Shown: in pieces, positions 4,823-23,219 of the stretch
Layout of the letters: every line of letters begins with the position of its first letter
Numbering within the stretch: position 1 is the first letter of the stretch
IMG/VR virus record: IMGVR_UViG_3300036800_000219
Location: 1-23,612 of that record
Reading direction: 5' to 3' (one strand)
From: a virus
Length of the DNA stretch: 23,612 bases
The notes under the pieces: model-generated
Seen by the model: the letters and a program-made list of their open reading frames with translations, nothing else
What the model was told of the DNA's origin: nothing
Database searches by the model: none
Translations under genes and position numbers: made by a program

Positions 4823-4859
4823 AGTCGACAGTCGATAGTTGAGAGTCCAGAGTCCCGAA
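4823..4859. repeat. Heptameric AGTYGAN repeat locus 6
   Basis: The run AGTCGAC, AGTCGAT, AGTTGAG, AGTCCAG, AGTCCCG lies just downstream of the gp6-like connector gene. A lone half copy (CAGTTGACAG) occurs at 4594-4603 at the other end of the same gap. Confidence 0.8.
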
Positions 4860-5990: not shown

Positions 5991-6054
5991 GACAGTTCAC
6001 AGTGGAGAGTCAAGAGTCCGAAAACTCTCAACTCTCAACTGTCGACTGTTAACT
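5991..6054. repeat. Heptameric AGTYGAN repeat locus 7, inverted pair
   Basis: Left arm 5991-6019 and right arm 6022-6054 are near reverse complements around TCCGAAAA. The TAG stop of the 156-aa gene (6053-6055) overlaps the outer end of the right arm. Confidence 0.85.
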
Positions 6055-10944: not shown

Positions 10945-11027
10945 AGCACCCACCTGCGCCCAAACATTACGTAACACGCAAGCAGCGCCAGACCGATCAG
11001 CGCGACAAGGTCAAAGACGCGCTTCAT
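10941..11027 (-). CDS. 28-aa single-span membrane peptide between terminase and portal
   Basis: This frame is too short for usual gene calls. ATG at 11025-11027 overlaps the TerL stop as ATGA, and its TGA at 10941-10943 overlaps a portal GTG as GTGA. The 28 residues are MKRVFDL, a hydrophobic stretch (VALIGLALLACYVMF), and basic RRWVL: a transmembrane segment with positive ends. Exact coupling on both sides argues for translation. I know no assigned function; it could be a membrane anchor for assembly, a lysis helper, or only a coupling device that keeps ribosomes moving to the portal start. Confidence 0.55.
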   Translation of the reverse strand: MKRVFDLVALIGLALLACYVMFGRRWVL

Positions 11028-12817
11028 ACGAAGAGCACTCCGCGCCCCTCGTCGTAGACGGTCCCGCCATCACCAGGGCTCGCGATCGCGCGGCCAATAC
11101 CCATCTCCATCGCGACGATGCCGTCAATCTTGCCGTAGTTCTGTTTCTTGATGGGGCGGCGGTTTCCGTTATTGTCTTCCTTCACGATCATGTTTCCGGC
11201 CATCCACGAGAGCACGGGGTTAGCCAGGTGCGCCAATTTTCGCGAGGGTATGTAGACGTCCAGCAACTCTTTCGTTGGCTGCGCGAAGAATTCAAACGTT
11301 TGCCGGAACTTCACCAGGCGCTCCACTGCGATACCCTGCTCCTGCAGATCATTGGCCACGCTGGTGGCCAAGTAGGGATCGAAGGCAATCTCGCGGACGT
11401 CGTACCGCTCGCAGTCTTCCAGGATGTCGGCCTCGATCGCGTGGTAATCGATGACGTTTCCTTCCGTCGTGCGGATGAATCCCTCGCGAACCCAGACGTC
11501 ATAGGGCGCCTTGGCTTCCTTCATGCGCTCTTCGATGGTGTCCGCAGGCAAATAAAAATCCGCGAGCACAACAAGTTTTCCCGCGAGGTCCGGCTCGGCA
11601 TCCTCGCCAAATGAAAACACTTTTACCTTGGCGGTGATGTCCTGCGAGGCGGACAGATCCAAGCCTATGAAACACGGCTTCCCGCCCATCCGAACAATCA
11701 TGCGATCGCGCAGAACCTTCGAATCAATCCCAGAGAGAGAAAACCCTGCGCACTGGTTCCAATCTTCCATCTTGATCGCGGCGTTCTCCTGATTGGTCCA
11801 GACGCAGAAGTTGAGGCGCTTGACGATGTTCTGCTTCGACGGCATCCCAGTCGCCTCGGTGACCTGCTCGCGCAGATACTTGACCGGAATCGAAACTCCG
11901 AGATTGGGATTGGCCTTTTTCCAGCAGCGCTCATCGGTCCACTCGTCCGATTCATCGAGGCCGCACACAAAAGCAAACCAGGAATCATCGAGCAGGTTGC
12001 CCTCGACCAGCTTTTGCGAATATTCGTGTTCGGCCCAGCAGACCGTGGCGCGGTCGAAACCTGAGTTGGTGATGCGAAAGATGAGCGCCTGGCGGCGCCC
12101 CTTGGTGCCAGCGCGCATCTTGTCGACGACGAGAGAGTTCGGATGCTCGTGGAGCTCGTCAATCGCGGCAAAATGGACGCGCTTGCCGTCGAGTCCTTTG
12201 TGCTCGGAGGACACGGGGCGGAAGAACGAACCGCTCTCCATGTGGGCGAGGTTGAAAACGCGAGTGGCGCCGGACTTGAAAATGCGCGCAGAGAGCGCAG
12301 GCGAGGCCTCAACCATGCGCACGGCGTCTCGAAAGAGGATGTTGGCCTGATCTTTCGTCGTGGCGGCCGAATAACATTCGGCGGAAGGCTCACCATCGGC
12401 GCACAGCATATAAATGCCAATGCCAGCGGCGAGAGGAGACTTCCCATTTCCCTTTCCAACTTCAACATAGGCGTTACGAAAACGGCGAAAACCGTCTGTG
12501 GTCTTCCATCCAAACAGGGACCCGACGATGAACTGCTGCCAGGGCTGCAGATCGAAAGGCTTGCCGGCATATTCGCCTTCCGCTAAGCGTAGAACATCGG
12601 GGAAAAAGTCTATCGCGCGCTGCGCCGCGTCGGCGTCCCAATTTAATCTGCGCTTCGATCCCTCTCGCAGATCGCGGAGATGTCGTTCGCAAGCTGCCCG
12701 AACCATTGGGCCAGCTACGATTTTCCCCGCGACAATGGCTTTACTGTATTGTGTGACTTGATCGGGTGCCGAAGTACTTGCCGGCGGGATCTTCTTTTTT
12801 CTTTTGTCTATCGCCAT
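11024..12817 (-). CDS. Terminase large subunit (Terminase_1, HK97 type)
   Basis: The 597-residue protein has the two-domain layout of the packaging motor. ATPase domain: a Walker A-like loop GKGNGKS (121-127) after RRFRNAYVEV, and Walker B VHFAAIDELHEH (214-225) with D220/E221. FDLQPWQQFIVGSLFGW (88-104) is the usual adenine-binding/Q-motif region. The nuclease domain begins at CFIGLDLSASQDIT with Asp387 as the first metal-binding residue, followed by AFDPYLATSVANDLQ and the C-terminal GNMIVKEDNNGNRRPIKKQN region. It starts at ATG 12817 inside the TerS gene (77-bp overlap), without a strong Shine-Dalgarno. It packages DNA through the portal encoded next. Confidence 0.97.
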   Translation of the reverse strand: MAIDKRKKKIPPASTSAPDQVTQYSKAIVAGKIVAGPMVRAACERHLRDLREGSKRRLNWDADAAQRAIDFFPDVLRLAEGEYAGKPFDLQPWQQFIVGSLFGWKTTDGFRRFRNAYVEVGKGNGKSPLAAGIGIYMLCADGEPSAECYSAATTKDQANILFRDAVRMVEASPALSARIFKSGATRVFNLAHMESGSFFRPVSSEHKGLDGKRVHFAAIDELHEHPNSLVVDKMRAGTKGRRQALIFRITNSGFDRATVCWAEHEYSQKLVEGNLLDDSWFAFVCGLDESDEWTDERCWKKANPNLGVSIPVKYLREQVTEATGMPSKQNIVKRLNFCVWTNQENAAIKMEDWNQCAGFSLSGIDSKVLRDRMIVRMGGKPCFIGLDLSASQDITAKVKVFSFGEDAEPDLAGKLVVLADFYLPADTIEERMKEAKAPYDVWVREGFIRTTEGNVIDYHAIEADILEDCERYDVREIAFDPYLATSVANDLQEQGIAVERLVKFRQTFEFFAQPTKELLDVYIPSRKLAHLANPVLSWMAGNMIVKEDNNGNRRPIKKQNYGKIDGIVAMEMGIGRAIASPGDGGTVYDEGRGVLFV

Positions 12818-14363: not shown

Positions 14364-14564
14364 CTAATGCGCGGAGGAACAAAACTGAAAGCTCCACAGG
14401 AGAAGTCCATAGACGGCATACCCCCACAGGCACATTCCGGCGAATAAAACAGTAGCGGCAAGAGCTTCCCGTCGTTCATTGCGCAAGTTCCACCAACTCC
14501 AGACCACCCCGAAGATACCCACAAAAGCTGCCAACATAAGATGCCATGGCGGGTGATATTTCAT
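14364..14564 (-). CDS. Two-span small membrane protein (holin-like by topology only)
   Basis: Choosing ATG 14564 gives 66 residues. CTGGAGTG, formed by the end of the ATPase gene, lies eight or so bases upstream. Two hydrophobic helices are visible: about 8-25 (LMLAAFVGIFGVVWSWW) and 35-60 (ALAATVLFAGMCLWGYAVYG LLLWSF), joined by a charged loop NLRNERRE. Length and topology fit class II holins, but no endolysin lies beside it. The gene follows the HerA-type ATPase by five bases, so it may instead be the membrane partner of that ATPase. Trp content is high. Confidence 0.65.
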   Translation of the reverse strand: MKYHPPWHLMLAAFVGIFGVVWSWWNLRNERREALAATVLFAGMCLWGYAVYGLLLWSFQFCSSAH

Positions 14565-14569
14565 TTTTT

Positions 14570-16471
14570 TCACTCCAGAAACAGCCAGTCCGCGCACTTC
14601 GCTTTTCCCGGTGCGGGATATTCGATCATCCCGGCCGAGCGAAGCGCGCCCAGGTTGTTCCCATACGCGCTGCTGGTCGCCGAAGCGCCAGCCAGATCCG
14701 CGAGCTCGGTTTTATCCACCGGTTCGGGATACTTCTCATGCAGCGCTTTCAAAATCGATTGCTGCGATCCGCTCAGCAGCTTCATGCAGCTTTGGAGCAC
14801 TTCCTCGGACGTTTCAGGCGGCTCGATCGGGCCGGCAGCGTTTCGGCCTTTGTCCGTGAGCGCCGCCTTATCGGGACCTGGATACTCGATGTATCCGTTG
14901 CTGCGCAGATATCCCAGATTGTTTCCATACGCGCTCGACGTATAGCTCGCGCCGGATCGCGCAGCGATCCACGACTTCGAAATCTGCTCTCGGCCAATCG
15001 CCTCAAACTCAGCAATTGCGCGCAAAATAGCCTTTCGGGGAGGGTTCAAATCACCGTTAAGATCATTCGGGCGAGGATGGTCTTGAGTCGCAGTCGTCGC
15101 ACCCCTGCTGACGGACTGCGAATGCGAAGGTTCTCCTTTGTGGATTTCCCGTGCGGAGATAGCCGCATGGGATGATGCCTCGCCCGAAACTTTTGACGCC
15201 GGCGCAGCCGTCACGTCGATTTGAATCTTGTCGCTGGAATCATCGAGCAACTGTTTGATCCTGGCACTCAGACGATTCGCCTCCCGGCGCAGCGCCTGGA
15301 GCTTGGTGTCACGCGCGGCCAGTTTCTCATTCGCCAGCTTGCGAACTTCGCGCTTCACCGCATCGAGCAGCGCCGCAGTCTCTTCCTCTTTCAATCCAGC
15401 GAAGTCGCCCAGCGCCTCTACCTTCACGATGATTTTCATGGCGTCCCTCAACAGTTCCCGCAAAGGCCGAACTGCTCGCTCGATCGCGCGCGTGTCAACT
15501 TTTGTTGTCACCGTTTCTTTTGGCGAGCTGCGAATCTGCGCTTTCAAATTCCGAATTTCCAGGCGCAATTCCTTTTCCGTCTTGGCCTTCTCCTCGGCCG
15601 CTTGCGGCAGATCCGCGAGCTTGGGCAGCAGCTCCCTGATCTTCGCCGGCGCCGGAGGAGGCGCGGCCGAGTAGTTGGCCGTGCCCACTTTCGGATGCGA
15701 AGTCTCGACCGGCCCGACATTCACCAGGATGCGTTCCTTGCTGATCGCTCGCCCAAAAGCAAAGAATTGCCCGGGCTCGAGCACTTTCACCTGCGCCTTG
15801 AATTCGTGCTTCAGCTCCGGAGGAACGCTGAGCAGCGCAACCGCGCGATCCACGTCCACATCTTCAAACGTCAGCCCCACCATGCGATTCTGCAGCTGCG
15901 AGCTGGCATTTTTATCCAGCAGAGCGAGTCGCTGCGTCGCCCAGATCGCGGCAATCCCGCGCTTGCGCCCCGCGCCGGCAATTCCCACCATCACGCCTTC
16001 CGCCGGCGATTCGCCCTGCTCGGGACAGAACATGTGCGCCTCATCCACAATCAGAATCGTCGGATGGCGCAGGCTCTTTGGAGCGTCCAGCATCCCCTCC
16101 AGGAACGCTTTCACCCACAAATGGCGGCCGATGGGATTCTTGCGGTAGCCTTCGAACAAATCGATCACTGCCGAAGCTTTCAGCTTCAGCAGCGTTTCCG
16201 CCAGCAGCCCCGCGGAGCGCACGTCGGCCGGAATGTCACCGCCCTCGCCCACCAGAAAGAAATCCAGCTTCTCGCGCAGCGTGGCGAATTCCCCTTCGGG
16301 ATCGATGATGATCACCGGAATTTTCCCGAAGAGCTGCTCAGCCAGCCGGCGCAATAGCCACGATTTGCCGCCGCCGCTATTCGCCTGGATCAGCAGCCGC
16401 GTGGATAGCAGCGTCTCCAGATCGATCGAGACATTCTTCTCGCCAGATTTTCCGATAACGATGTGGCTCAT
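14570..16471 (-). CDS. HerA/DUF87-type P-loop ATPase with tandem C-terminal winged helices
   Basis: The 633-residue protein has HerA-FtsK ATPase features: IGKSGEKNVSIDLETLLSTR, P-loop ANSGGGKS (30-37), IIIDPEGEF (54-62), Walker B ILIVDEAH (139-146), then AGAGRKRGIAAIWATQRLAL (165-184) with arginine-finger and sensor residues. Residues 290-410 are a long charged coiled coil. The C-terminus contains two related winged-helix units, 479-543 and 569-633, each with SSAYGNNLG and an [SN]xG[YM]IEYP wing. HerA rings translocate DNA and usually act with NurA, DUF4297 or SIR2 partners; no nuclease partner is recognisable here. The ATG at 16471 overlaps the previous stop (ATGA). Confidence 0.88.
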   Translation of the reverse strand: MSHIVIGKSGEKNVSIDLETLLSTRLLIQANSGGGKSWLLRRLAEQLFGKIPVIIIDPEGEFATLREKLDFFLVGEGGDIPADVRSAGLLAETLLKLKASAVIDLFEGYRKNPIGRHLWVKAFLEGMLDAPKSLRHPTILIVDEAHMFCPEQGESPAEGVMVGIAGAGRKRGIAAIWATQRLALLDKNASSQLQNRMVGLTFEDVDVDRAVALLSVPPELKHEFKAQVKVLEPGQFFAFGRAISKERILVNVGPVETSHPKVGTANYSAAPPPAPAKIRELLPKLADLPQAAEEKAKTEKELRLEIRNLKAQIRSSPKETVTTKVDTRAIERAVRPLRELLRDAMKIIVKVEALGDFAGLKEEETAALLDAVKREVRKLANEKLAARDTKLQALRREANRLSARIKQLLDDSSDKIQIDVTAAPASKVSGEASSHAAISAREIHKGEPSHSQSVSRGATTATQDHPRPNDLNGDLNPPRKAILRAIAEFEAIGREQISKSWIAARSGASYTSSAYGNNLGYLRSNGYIEYPGPDKAALTDKGRNAAGPIEPPETSEEVLQSCMKLLSGSQQSILKALHEKYPEPVDKTELADLAGASATSSAYGNNLGALRSAGMIEYPAPGKAKCADWLFLE

Positions 16472-16692
16472 TTTTTATCCGCTTCGCGCCAAGAGCCCGC
16501 GGGGACGAACAACATGCCTTCCGCATAGATCCGACGATCAGCCGGAAGAGATGTGCTGAACTTTAGAAGTCGGTACTTTTCCAGGTGGGATTCGCCGGGC
16601 TTTACCAATGGAAAGCCTCGATATTCGGAAACCTCGAAGCCCGCGCTTCGGAGTTCAGAGCTCACCACGGAGGTCCACTCACTGAGTGTCAT
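16468..16692 (-). CDS. Small protein coupled to the HerA-type ATPase
   Basis: The 74-residue protein (MTLSEWTSVVSSELRSAGFE, a central EYRGFPLVKPGESHLEKYRL, then a Pro-containing strand MLFVPAGSW) looks like a compact alpha/beta fold. No family is recognised. Both ends are coupled: its ATG overlaps the zinc-finger gene stop, and its TGA overlaps the ATPase ATG. Such one-to-one coupling suggests the three products work together, perhaps as a loader or regulator for the ATPase; that role is inference only. Confidence 0.7.
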   Translation of the reverse strand: MTLSEWTSVVSSELRSAGFEVSEYRGFPLVKPGESHLEKYRLLKFSTSLPADRRIYAEGMLFVPAGSWREADKK

Positions 16693-17006
16693 TTCTTAGC
16701 TCCGAACAAATCTCCTTGCGTATCCGGCTTTCGAAATTGCGCGGCGTGCGGGCAAGTCTCGAAATGCGAGTGCAGCTTATACGGCGGCTCTTTGTCGCGT
16801 TCCAGTGGAGCGTACTTCTTTCCAGTCCACCAAAAATCGATTGGCACGCCGCAGAGTTTGCAGTTGCGCGAGAACGTCAATCGCCACCCGGCCGCGACCA
16901 GGTCCTCACGCGACGCGGGAAACTCAAGCTTCTGTTTCGGTTTCATTCTGTGGCCACCACAAATGATTGCGAAGTTTCCGTTACCGAGATCGATTTTCTG
17001 GCACAT
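16689..17006 (-). CDS. Zinc-finger protein with C-terminal clamp-binding-like motif
   Basis: The 105-residue protein has two candidate metal ligand pairs: C49/C52 (NCKLCGVPIDFWWT) and H81/C85/H87 (HSHFETCPHAAQ). Between them is FWWTGKKYAPLERD. The last nine residues are QGDLFGAKK; QxDLF matches the bacterial beta-clamp binding pentapeptide (QL[SD]LF type). This suggests a DNA-bound factor tethered to the host sliding clamp, in front of the ATPase that follows in the same coupled set. The ATG at 17006 has GAGGAAC upstream. A later Met21 could also start it. The function is unknown. Confidence 0.75.
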   Translation of the reverse strand: MCQKIDLGNGNFAIICGGHRMKPKQKLEFPASREDLVAAGWRLTFSRNCKLCGVPIDFWWTGKKYAPLERDKEPPYKLHSHFETCPHAAQFRKPDTQGDLFGAKK

Positions 17007-17072: not shown

Positions 17073-17474
17073 CTACCCAGCCCTTCCAATGTTCGCTGGC
17101 ACATGCCCCTTGGGAAATCGGTGGCACGCCCCATGTTTCTGTAAGTCGGCTCCCAATAGCTTCAGATTCTCGGCCAGATATTCCGGGCTCTTTCTCAGAC
17201 CGAGCCTCGCTGCGCGTCCATATACGCTTGTGTGAGTGGCTCCGAAGAATTTTGCCAACTTCTTACAGGACGTATTCGGATATTCTTTTCTCAGTCGGCA
17301 ATCTTCCGCGGCGGTCCACCGTTTGTATTTTCGAATGCGGCGAATTCTCAGCAACTTCGCGCGGGAGGCTATGGAGCAGCGAGAGCGCCCCAAAAGCGAC
17401 GCGCATCTCTTCCGTGACATCACAGGATAGATTTCCCGAAGCCTCTTATCTTCGCGTTTTGACCACGGCCTCAC
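17073..17474 (-). CDS. Tandem SANT/Myb-like HTH protein, relic of an HNH-type endonuclease
   Basis: I place the start at GTG 17474, which overlaps the previous TGA (GTGA) and has GGGAGG eight bases upstream; this gives 133 residues. Two HTH units are seen: residues 3-45 (WSKREDKRLREIYPVMSRKR) and 52-95 (RWTAAEDCRLRKEYPNTSCK KLAKFF). The end, HRFPKGHVPANIGRAG, is the RFxKGHxPxN linker that in many phage proteins leads to an HNH domain. Here the frame stops right after it, so the nuclease domain is absent. It may be a decayed homing endonuclease or a standalone DNA-binding protein. Confidence 0.7.
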   Translation of the reverse strand: MRPWSKREDKRLREIYPVMSRKRCASLLGRSRCSIASRAKLLRIRRIRKYKRWTAAEDCRLRKEYPNTSCKKLAKFFGATHTSVYGRAARLGLRKSPEYLAENLKLLGADLQKHGACHRFPKGHVPANIGRAG

Positions 17475-17692
17475 CGATCCAGCCTCCCATCTATGAGGGA
17501 CCCGCTCCGCAGCCGATCGAGCACGCGCGCCGCCGGCAGCCACTTATTCGACATTCCCGTGTCGCGCGTCAGCCACAACATCAAGTGCCCGCATCTGCAA
17601 ACGATCATGGCATGGTTGATTTGCGTGATTCGAACCACGGCCACTCCGGCAATGTCCTGCGCCGTGAATCCGTACGTATCGCCGACAAGCAT
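17471..17692 (-). CDS. Small protein with single CxC motif
   Basis: From ATG 17692 (GGAGGG five bases upstream; TGATG overlap with the previous gene) the product has 73 residues: MLVGDTYGFTAQDIAGVAVV, then INHAMIVCRCGHLMLW, then a basic tail (LDRLRSGSLIDGRLDR). CRCGH could be half of a metal site. The family is not recognised. It is one link of a five-gene chain of overlapping starts and stops in the early region. Confidence 0.65.
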   Translation of the reverse strand: MLVGDTYGFTAQDIAGVAVVRITQINHAMIVCRCGHLMLWLTRDTGMSNKWLPAARVLDRLRSGSLIDGRLDR

Positions 17693-17865
17693 CAAGCCCT
17701 CCGTGATTTGCGATCGGCACGCCAGTGCGCCCTTCGCGCCAACTCTTCCCGGTATGCCGCTTTCGGTCCCACGCGCTCCTCGCGCTGCGCACTCTGGATG
17801 CTGATGCCGCTCTCGCGCTTCAGGGCTTTTAGCTTTTCCATCCGCTCGCGATCGCTCCTTCTCAT
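17692..17865 (-). CDS. 57-aa basic, coiled-coil-like protein
   Basis: This frame of 58 codons is flanked by exact couplings: ATG 17863-17865 overlaps the previous TGA (ATGA), and its TGA shares one base with the next ATG (TGATG). Sequence is highly charged: MRRSDRERMEKLKALKRESG near the start and AYREELARRAHWRADRKSRR near the end. It would form helices that bind nucleic acid or act as an adaptor. No family is recognised. Confidence 0.6.
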   Translation of the reverse strand: MRRSDRERMEKLKALKRESGISIQSAQREERVGPKAAYREELARRAHWRADRKSRRA

Positions 17866-18542
17866 CCTGCTTCCCTGCGCTGCGCGATTTCGCTATCGAT
17901 CCGCTCGCCCAACTGTTGCCACAGCGCCAGCAGCTCGCGATATCGCGGATGGCCCGACGGCATTCGGTCCAGCACCTTGCGCAGCCGGTAGAATTCCCTT
18001 AGGTCGCGATCGCGGTTATGCACAGGTTGTGCCTGCGCGCCAGCGCCGTACGTTAGGTTCTCTTCTTTAGAAGTACTTCTTTTCTCCGGCAACTTTTTGC
18101 CGGAGCATCCGGCAACTTTTTGCCGGGCGTCAACCTGTGAATTTCTCAGCTTATGCACAGGGTTTTGAACAGCTTTATCCGCAAGCTCAGCTTGCCGTGG
18201 ATTTGGCCGCCCCCTGGGAATCTCAACAGGCTCGCTATACAGAGACATCTGCCGCGGCTGCCCTTCCCGGAAATGCTTTACCGGCGAAAGCACCCAGATC
18301 TTCATGCCCTGATTCATGCGAGCCTTCTTCACCATCACGGCCCCGCCGCGCTCGAGCGCCCGCATCCAGTTTCGCAGCGTCCTCTCGCACGGCGCGCACC
18401 CGTGCAGCGACTTGAGCCACGCTTTCACCTGGCCATAGGTCACGGCGCGGCCGTAGTAGACGCGCCCATCCCCGCTAGTCATTTTTTCGGTGAACAATGC
18501 CAGCAACGCAGTCGCCGGTGACCATGCCCGAACTGAGCCCAA
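17862..18542 (-). CDS. Winged-helix protein, probable replication or replisome-organiser factor
   Basis: I choose TTG 18542 because GGAGA lies six bases upstream; a TTG at 18584 would make the intergenic repeat coding. The protein has 226 residues. Residues 25-90 form a wHTH (TYGQVKAWLKSLHGCAPCER TLRNWMRALERGGAVMV, then KIWVLSP), like the initiator or primosome proteins that open phage early replication operons. A low-complexity, basic middle is followed by a helical C-terminus (YRELLALWQQLGERIDSEIA). No DnaC-type ATPase is seen next to it. The specific role in replication is inferred from fold and position. Confidence 0.6.
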   Translation of the reverse strand: MGSVRAWSPATALLALFTEKMTSGDGRVYYGRAVTYGQVKAWLKSLHGCAPCERTLRNWMRALERGGAVMVKKARMNQGMKIWVLSPVKHFREGQPRQMSLYSEPVEIPRGRPNPRQAELADKAVQNPVHKLRNSQVDARQKVAGCSGKKLPEKRSTSKEENLTYGAGAQAQPVHNRDRDLREFYRLRKVLDRMPSGHPRYRELLALWQQLGERIDSEIAQRREAG

Positions 18543-18557
18543 GTGGTTCTCCAGGGA

Positions 18558-18577
18558 AGTTGAGAGTCGACAGTTAA
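18558..18577. repeat. Heptameric AGTYGAN repeat locus 8
   Basis: A short copy (AGTTGAGAGTCGACAGTTAA) between the wHTH gene and the 64-aa gene. Its TAA is the stop of the latter. Confidence 0.75.
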
Positions 18578-18768
18578 GATCCAATCATCCGCACCGTAAT
18601 CCGCGCCGTGGTGATCCGCTTGCCGCGCATCTCGTCGCGATCGCGAATCACGTCCAGTCCCACGCGCGCCGCCGTTCCCAGCGAAGACGCGCGCACCACG
18701 CAAGCCTGCTCGGCCAGGTGTGCCGGCCGAACTTCAGGAAAGTACGCGGTAATTGACCAATCTTTCAT
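18574..18768 (-). CDS. Small hypothetical early protein (64 aa)
   Basis: From ATG 18768 the product reads MKDWSITAYFPEVRPAHLAE followed by an Ala/Arg-rich helix and a C-terminal strand (GKRITTARITVRMIGS). It resembles small alpha/beta phage early proteins, without an assigned family. No Shine-Dalgarno is obvious; an in-frame TTG lies 12 bases farther out. The stop codon is part of heptad locus 8 and the start is close to locus 9, so it forms another repeat-bounded cassette. Confidence 0.55.
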   Translation of the reverse strand: MKDWSITAYFPEVRPAHLAEQACVVRASSLGTAARVGLDVIRDRDEMRGKRITTARITVRMIGS

Positions 18769-18773
18769 AAGGG

Positions 18774-18807
18774 CAGTCAACAGTTCACAGTTGAGAGTCG
18801 AGAGCTG
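18774..18807. repeat. Heptameric AGTYGAN repeat locus 9
   Basis: The run GGGCAGTCAACAGTTCACAG continues into GTTGAGAGTCGAGAGCT. It encodes the last residues and the TGA stop of the 78-aa gene. Confidence 0.8.
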
Positions 18808-19021
18808 AGCCGCTGACAGATTCGGGGCCAGCGACAGGCGACCCGGGATTCGGCACCGGTGTTTTACGCGGCACGATTCCCAAAACCTTGATATCCAGGT
18901 GCCGCACGTCCTGGTAACTGGATAGCGAATATGTCGCCGCTCTTACCGCGTGGCAGTCGTCATCGGTTTCCTCAATCACTGCGGTAAAGCTGATCGCAAC
19001 TCGTCGCGCGTCTGCTGGCAT
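18785..19021 (-). CDS. Small hypothetical early protein (78 aa)
   Basis: ATG 19021 has GGAGGGG four bases upstream, a very strong ribosome site, so I reject the longer 172-codon frame that crosses a repeat and the next gene. Residues 1-50 (MPADARRVAISFTAVIEETD, CHAVRAATYSLSSYQDVRHL) have an alternating strand pattern; a Pro-rich tail follows. The last residues (SGSALDSQL) are translated from heptad locus 9. Family unknown. Confidence 0.65.
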   Translation of the reverse strand: MPADARRVAISFTAVIEETDDDCHAVRAATYSLSSYQDVRHLDIKVLGIVPRKTPVPNPGSPVAGPESVSGSALDSQL

Positions 19022-19259: not shown

Positions 19260-19299
19260 AGGCAGTTCACAGTTGAGAGTTGACAGTCGAGAGTTTCGG
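19260..19299. repeat. Heptameric AGTYGAN repeat locus 11
   Basis: CAGTTCACAGTTGAGAGTTG is followed by ACAGTCGAGAGTTTCGGA. It separates the Acb2-like gene from the 57-aa membrane protein gene. Confidence 0.8.
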
Positions 19300-19535: not shown

Positions 19536-19577
19536 TCCGAAAACTTTCGACTCTCAACTGTTGACTGTCGACTGCCT
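19536..19577. repeat. Heptameric AGTYGAN repeat locus 12
   Basis: CCGAAAACTTTCGACTCTCA is followed by ACTGTTGACTGTCGACTGCC. It lies just upstream of the Acb2-like gene's ribosome site. Confidence 0.8.
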
Positions 19578-20199: not shown

Positions 20200-20263
20200 T
20201 CCGAAAACTCTCGACTCTTAACCTGCCTGCCGGCAGGCAGGCTGTCGACTGTGAACTGCCTCT
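20200..20263. repeat. Heptameric repeat locus 13 with perfect 20-bp palindrome
   Basis: CCGAAAACTCTCGACTCTTAA and CTGTCGACTGTGAACTG flank CCTGCCTGCCGGCAGGCAGG (20222-20241), a perfect palindrome. It forms the gap between the 53-aa membrane protein and the 72-aa protein genes. Confidence 0.85.
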
Positions 20264-21930: not shown

Positions 21931-23052
21931 ATGAGCGAGAAACCAAAAGTCCGCGGCATCTTCGAACGGCCTCCCGGTTCGGAGATCTGGTGGATCTCCT
22001 ACTTCGATGGCGATCGAAGATGGCATCGCGAGAAAGTCGGCCGCCGATCCGTGGCGATTGAGGCTTACCATCGCCGCAAACGCGAGATCCGCGAAGGAAT
22101 CTTCGTGCCGCCCGAATCCCGCAGGACGAGTACGCCGTTCCGCGAGTTGGCGGAGGAACGCATGGCGCTCAAGAAAATGACCCTCGCCCCGCTCTCCTAT
22201 CGAGCCGACGAACAGAGATTGAAGCCGCTCCTGGGGATCCTGGGCTCCGTGCCGGCGCGATCGATCACACCGCAAATACTTGACGCTGCACTGGAGAAGA
22301 TCGCGTCTCATCAAATCGATCGCGCGATAGGCCCATGTGTGATCACTGGCGCGACGGTAAATAGATACAGGACTCTTTTGAGCAGCATCTTCAGCACGGC
22401 CGTGGCAAACGGGCGGCTCGCGGCGAGCCCCATAAAGAAGCTAAGCCGGCGCCGGGAATCGCATGGGCGCGTCCGGTATCTTTCCGGGGTCGAGGAACGC
22501 AAATTGCGCAAAGTCATCCATGCAAAATGGCGCGATCGCGAGCCGAGATTCGACCTGGCTCTGCATACTGGAATGCGGCGCAGCGAGCAGTTCGATTTGA
22601 AGTGGGAGCACGTCGATCTGGAGAGGAAGATCCTTACGGTGCATGGGAAGGGCGATCGCCGGCGCTTCGTAAACCTAAACAAGATCGCCGAGAAGGCGCT
22701 GTTGAAGTTGCACAAGCTTTCGAACGGGTCCAGGTTCATCTACGCAGACCGAAATACGGACTATGACTACACCACCTGGTTCAAGAGCTGCGTAAAGGAA
22801 TCGAGGATCGCCCACTTCACGTGGCACGATCTCCGGCATACCTTCGCTTCGCGGCTGGCGATGGCGGGCGTTCCGCTGCACACGATCCAGGAGCTGCTCG
22901 GCCACGCCTCGATCGTGACGACGATGCGCTACGCCCACCTCTCGGCGGCGCACAAGCAGTCCGCCGTCGAAAAATTGGTAACTCACACCAGAACTAACAC
23001 TAGGGGAAAAAGTCCGGAGCAGCGAATCCTACAAATGCCGAGTTATCAGTGA
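21931..23052 (+). CDS. int: Tyrosine integrase
   Basis: The 373-residue protein has the lambda-integrase family architecture. An N-terminal arm-binding/AP2-like part (WWISYFDGDRRWHREKVGRR) and SAM-like core-binding domain (residues 65-170) precede the catalytic domain with R216 (HTGMRRSEQ), K240 (VHGKGDRRR), H299/R302 (WHDLRHTFASR), H325 (LLGHASI) and nucleophile Y334 (MRYAHLSA). All pentad-type residues are intact. It inserts phage DNA at a tRNA-type site; a tRNA-Cys fragment lies four bases after its stop. Its C-terminal THTRTNT stretch is encoded by one of two 20-bp direct repeats. No Shine-Dalgarno precedes ATG 21931; a TATAGT box lies 28 bases upstream. Confidence 0.96.
   Translation: MSEKPKVRGIFERPPGSEIWWISYFDGDRRWHREKVGRRSVAIEAYHRRKREIREGIFVPPESRRTSTPFRELAEERMALKKMTLAPLSYRADEQRLKPLLGILGSVPARSITPQILDAALEKIASHQIDRAIGPCVITGATVNRYRTLLSSIFSTAVANGRLAASPIKKLSRRRESHGRVRYLSGVEERKLRKVIHAKWRDREPRFDLALHTGMRRSEQFDLKWEHVDLERKILTVHGKGDRRRFVNLNKIAEKALLKLHKLSNGSRFIYADRNTDYDYTTWFKSCVKESRIAHFTWHDLRHTFASRLAMAGVPLHTIQELLGHASIVTTMRYAHLSAAHKQSAVEKLVTHTRTNTRGKSPEQRILQMPSYQ
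22981..23000. repeat. 20-bp direct repeat, left copy
   Basis: ACTCACACCAGAACTAACAC occurs here inside the integrase 3' end and again, identical, at 23200-23219. The tRNA-Cys fragment lies between the two copies. This position fits integrase arm-type sites. Confidence 0.85.
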
Positions 23053-23103: not shown

Positions 23104-23199
23104 GGCATAGTGGTCGAAAGTGGGAAGGCAAAAAATGCAGCATTTCGCCGCAATCTGGCCAGTTTCGAAAGTGGAGCGATGCGTCAGGCGAGATAGCTA

Positions 23200-23219
23200 C
23201 TCACACCAGAACTAACACC
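23200..23219. repeat. 20-bp direct repeat, right copy
   Basis: Identical to 22981-23000 and about 96 bp beyond the tRNA fragment. Confidence 0.85.

Follow-up and report, generated by a model that had tools for sequence, protein, structure and literature searches.

A HerA/FtsK-superfamily ATPase of a tailed phage carries two winged-helix heads with matched recognition helices

The window, by which we mean the whole stretch of 23,612 bases that was analysed (virus record IMGVR_UViG_3300036800_000219), appears to be part of an integrated tailed phage, with an integrase-like ORF (21931-23052) near one of its ends. Its minus strand encodes a 105-aa zinc-finger protein (16689-17006, with a C-x2-C ... 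H-x3-C pattern), a 74-aa protein (16468-16692) and a 633-aa ATPase of the HerA/FtsK superfamily (14570-16471). The genes follow one another in that order with a 4-nt ATGA overlap at both junctions, exactly as the original prediction had described. All three coupled genes look real: the homologues of the ATPase and of the 74-aa protein have intact frames, and the zinc finger can be assigned to a recognisable family. The upstream neighbour of the trio, also on the minus strand, is an HTH-repeat regulator ("transcriptional regulator, D5-like", 17073-17543). Downstream lie the terminase, portal and head genes on the same strand as the ATPase, with the terminase large subunit encoded by a gene of its own (11024-12817). 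Immediately after the ATPase, a minus-strand ORF whose ATG lies 5 nt past the ATPase stop codon encodes a 66-aa protein (14364-14564) that had been described as a two-span membrane protein. The protein does have two hydrophobic stretches, assigned as spans by eye, and is probably a membrane protein, but no homologues of it were found, and this is the weakest part of the original observation.

The window also contains repeats at two other places. At 18085-18126, inside the ORF at 17862-18584, the 19-nt sequence TCCGGCAACTTTTTGCCGG occurs in two exact copies that start 23 nt apart and could each form a hairpin. An exact 20-nt direct repeat, ACTCACACCAGAACTAACAC, is found at the 3' end of the integrase (22981-23000) and just beyond it (23199-23218), and could possibly be an attachment-site relic or a partial duplication.

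The ATPase is a member of the HerA/FtsK superfamily of pumping ATPases. It matches the Pfam DUF87/HerA family (E 9.5e-12), and HerA models and HerA structures match it by sequence as well. When its AlphaFold2 model was compared with the PDB using Foldseek, HerA proteins were at the top, and the STIV2 packaging ATPase fitted the core alone. The motor is HerA-like, and no FtsK_SpoIIIE Pfam match was obtained at E values up to 1. Walker A (ANSGGGKS, aa 30-37; 16361-16384, minus strand) and Walker B (ILIVDEAH, aa 139-146; 16034-16057, minus strand) are readily located, with S32, G33, G35, K36, D143 and E144 invariant in 46 aligned sequences, as is a conserved arginine motif, GRKR. In the AlphaFold2 model (a monomer, from 46 sequences, with a mean pLDDT of 85 and a pTM of 0.54), a RecA-like core (aa 1-260) is followed by a coiled coil (276-414), a disordered linker (~413-473) and two winged helices (477-546 and 555-633). 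The coiled coil and both C-terminal winged-helix units that had been read from the sequence are thus present in the model. A nuclease domain is absent from it, although phrog_2666 matches the ATPase, and this absence, together with the separate terminase gene at 11024-12817, rules out the ATPase as the terminase large subunit.

Relatives of the ATPase were gathered by a protein scan, which returned 54 viral loci and 18 genome loci, and by a profile scan, which returned 305 viral stretches with a relative, the best 80 of which were fetched; clustering at 90% then gave 101 non-redundant ATPase loci. Only three matches were present in a collection of phage records, one of which carries a HerA helicase annotation. 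Some relatives (L050, L051, L062 and L065-L071) are shorter, at 400-450 aa, and lack the tandem winged helices, and the next gene after each of them encodes a multi-HTH protein, an arrangement beside headless motors that fits motor and DNA reading belonging together. Some of these relatives without fused winged helices are alphaproteobacterial. The window's HTH-repeat regulator likewise has relatives close to the ATPase elsewhere; in some alphaproteobacterial members without fused winged helices, the gene immediately following the ATPase encodes one of them.

HerA/FtsK motors serve in chromosome segregation, end resection, capsid packaging in membrane-containing viruses, and defence. The window ATPase shares its RecA-like core and Walker motifs with HerA of the HerA-NurA translocase, which provides the best PDB fold and sequence matches. 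However, HerA has an N-terminal HAS barrel, whereas the core of the window ATPase begins at residue 1, with Walker A from residue 30, and of the insertion that HerA carries between its Walker motifs ~140 residues are missing, such that residues 66-120 of the ATPase face residues 223-417 of the 9x1l chain in the sequence alignment. HerA also works with NurA, while the window ATPase has no NurA and carries an added coiled coil and two winged helices. The motor, flexible linker and C-terminal winged helix of FtsK/SpoIIIE are present in the window ATPase too, for which DNA reading would be proposed by analogy, the FtsK gamma domain being known to read KOPS (PMC9764985). FtsK has one head per chain, in contrast with the two heads of the window ATPase, which has no membrane domain. 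Fusions of FtsK_gamma to the terminase small subunit in Bacillus phages Sam46 and Sam112 (PMC8190038) are an earlier example of a DNA-reading winged helix of the FtsK type in the setting of phage packaging, although in those phages the head is fused to the terminase and in the window the heads are fused to a separate motor. A relative of similar length, the "hera helicase" of Podoviridae sp. ct4oC223 (MW202482.1), is annotated by name only, and PHROG 7035, which matches the core region, is annotated as "unknown function". While the superfamily itself is established and single members are annotated as HerA, we found no description of the architecture or of the matched heads described below in the open-access literature, which leaves aside the 2004 superfamily survey, and no described job for the nuclease-free HerA/FtsK motors that are common in terminase-bearing tailed phages.

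The recognition helices of the two winged helices start with the same peptide, SSAYGNNLG, at aa 512-520 (14912-14938, minus strand) in the first unit and aa 600-608 (14648-14674, minus strand) in the second, and several synonymous codon differences separate the two copies. This matched block sits on helices 513-524 and 601-612 of the AlphaFold2 model. When the units were aligned across the family, the block was found to vary from phage to phage, yet both units of a protein change together. Over 11 columns, identity was 85% within a protein versus 29% between proteins (40 proteins under 70% identity; maximum of 2,000 shuffles, 42%), and over 9 columns in 91 proteins it was 90% within a protein versus 31% when shuffled (maximum of 1,000 shuffles, 40%), with both shuffle tests leaving some relatedness in. 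The 91 proteins carry 66 distinct pairs of helix starts. Outside the block, within-protein and between-protein identities were 32% versus 23% for the helices preceding the recognition helix and 25% versus 16% for the wing.

A recent duplication or gene conversion behind the matched heads is not supported, because the rest of the units differ and because matching residues use identical codons hardly more often (47.8%) than expected from each gene's codon usage (42.8%). Since codon likeness is close to this expectation, gene conversion is unlikely, and the matched heads are most simply explained by selection on the protein. If selection keeps the heads alike, then both heads of one protein probably contact the same DNA half-site, which would be specific to each phage. 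That the heads differ among phages suggests an address on the DNA, private to each phage, by which the motor is steered. A repressor, or a protein that binds DNA without moving along it, would have just as much use for matched heads.

Searches for the cognate DNA site gave no candidate. Enrichment of 8-mers for the SRD(A/T)Y helix class produced mostly AT-rich noise, and no 6+6 direct or inverted dyad was common to five phages with SS(A/S/T)YGNN helices. The window does contain tandem AGTYGAS heptads in both orientations, mostly intergenic, with 37 matches when one mismatch is allowed versus 0.13 expected (386-406, 1180-1207, 1691-1718, 1739-1766, 2181-2253, 2638-2665, 4823-4850, 6027-6054, 18558-18578, 18782-18809, 19264-19291, 19546-19573 and 20244-20257). 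We rejected these heptads as the ATPase site, because no exact two-unit match was present in the loci gathered to that point and because an ATPase relative was found in only 1 of the 40 heptad-bearing viral records tested. The heptads also occur in 88 stretches of other viral contigs, and are probably a separate, host-type dispersed repeat.

The genomic neighbourhood was surveyed with gene calls from a simple scoring script rather than a trained gene finder. In the 19 loci where a terminase of the window's type was found, it was always downstream of the ATPase and on the same strand (19/19), at a median distance of 3.9 kb. Long ORFs downstream of the ATPase are dominated by terminase families and portal proteins, while no terminase family is among the 25 families listed for upstream ORFs, where ParB-like, DnaB-like and recombination proteins are listed and methyltransferases are also found. 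This order also fits a gene that is simply the last of the early region.

Since ParB-like partition proteins recur as neighbours, the segregation role named in the original prediction is possible. A minority of loci have ParB-like genes, however, and phages in general commonly encode them. The ATPase might accordingly be a segregation or anti-silencing motor of a prophage or phage episome that works with ParB-like proteins and is unlinked to packaging, as would also befit a "chromosome segregation protein" encoded three genes upstream of the "hera helicase" in MW202482.1 and an architecture that, like that of FtsK, joins a motor to a winged helix (PMC9764985). We nonetheless regard this explanation as doubtful: the integrase at 21931-23052 indicates that the prophage was probably integrated, and neither a ParA gene nor a centromere array was noticed.

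Consistent with the earlier proposal that the ATPase lacks a NurA or SIR2 partner, family searches of 40 related phage records, many of them fragments, returned no NurA (PF09376; 0/40, with the positive control ringing in 7/14) and no SIR2_2 (PF13289; 0/40, with the positive control ringing in 2/14). DUF4297/Cap4 (PF14130) was likewise found in 0/40 records and mad7 in 0/27, with the controls for these two families also silent. These family searches gave no nuclease partner, and a phage DNA translocase that works without one is well supported across the family. The PADLOC mad8 model (the ATPase of the MADS system) aligns with the whole core (E 3.1e-16), its residues 3-299 of 314 covering aa 3-252 of the ATPase, nearly end to end. 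Capture of HerA/FtsK ATPases into defence systems is documented (PMC10853773), and SIR2-HerA pairs carried by phages have been described (PMC9503650), so that the ATPase could be an anti-defence or defence motor that disarms or mimics host HerA systems or pairs with a host nuclease. However, the window ATPase differs from Mad8 in the coiled coil and winged helices beyond its core, and no other MADS component was found as tested. Membership of MADS or another defence island is not supported, the defence-model neighbours among the 25 families listed being mostly DNA methyltransferases. Given also the missing SIR2_2, NurA and mad7 partners, the last with its silent control, and the position of the ATPase beside replication, recombination and packaging genes, we consider a defence or anti-defence motor unlikely.

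The zinc finger is a recurrent but optional neighbour of the ATPase. With a zinc-finger profile, it was detected within 1 kb of the ATPase in 9 of the 101 non-redundant loci (~9%), a frequency to be read with the caveat that a short, divergent zinc finger can be missed and that some surveyed loci end near the ATPase. Nine of its 14 occurrences in ATPase loci fall within 1 kb of the ATPase, and none of 20,000 placement shuffles reached nine, so an optional functional link between the two proteins is possible. The zinc-finger gene also overlaps the ATPase gene by 4 nt in other loci, among them L045 and L104, where it lies upstream, and L044, where it lies downstream. Zinc fingers of this kind are also present in unrelated phages without an ATPase match, such as D6E and phiOH2, and single-protein scans of viral contigs with the zinc finger returned nothing or only the query itself. 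Two homologues (L086:1153-1503 and L127:9524-10000) have an extra N-terminal cysteine-rich stretch, of which apparently just the first residues (NGNFAIICGGHR) remain in the window protein.

The 74-aa protein has three other homologues (L015, L075 and L076). Its gene adjoins the ATPase gene nowhere but in the window: the two are 2.8 kb apart in L015, and no ATPase was found in the L075 and L076 records. It is an optional neighbour of the ATPase. Because the zinc finger accompanies ~9% of the ATPases and the 74-aa gene is found without the ATPase, the trio is not a conserved system, contrary to the set of three that had been proposed. That the zinc finger, the 74-aa protein and the ATPase form an obligate three-protein complex is highly improbable despite the ATGA coupling at both junctions and the zinc finger within 1 kb in nine loci, some with 4-nt overlaps, because an adjacent zinc finger went undetected in ~92 of 101 ATPase loci, and the 74-aa gene is adjacent in the window alone and turns up in phage records where no ATPase was found. 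The neighbourhood survey, in finding ATPase homologues without these neighbours, leaves of the undescribed phage DNA translocation complex first envisaged a nuclease-free translocase that holds family-wide, but not the three-protein complex.

What the sequences show is the family, its motifs, the order of the domains, the matched heads with selection acting on the protein, and the neighbourhood; building on this, we lean, on balance, toward the ATPase being a sequence-directed dsDNA translocase that would act, by analogy with FtsK, on replicated phage DNA before packaging. The RecA-like core would form a ring, assumed from the family to be a hexamer, and pump dsDNA using ATP, with the coiled coil and flexible linker tethering the two winged helices of each subunit. 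Both winged helices would read one short DNA sequence, different in each phage, and in this way may load and orient the motor on phage rather than host DNA, as FtsK gamma does on KOPS. Since the gene is placed at the end of the early genes and upstream of the terminase, the motor most likely would move, sort or clear concatemers or dimers of replicated phage DNA ahead of packaging, with the zinc-finger and 74-aa proteins as its optional accessories.

A broader reading, which we offer tentatively and with considerably less confidence, is that the ATPase represents a widespread family of tailed-phage motors whose matched heads co-evolve with a repeated phage DNA address and, jointly with this, that the heads guide the motor in delivering or sorting phage DNA ahead of the terminase, making the family a possible viral equivalent of FtsK-KOPS with specificities numbering in the dozens. 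The matched recognition helices provide a direct handle on the ATPase, in that the DNA sequence read by the protein of any one phage is open to testing and a swap of heads should swap specificity. They thereby bring the function within reach of experiment, which gene neighbourhood on its own would not.
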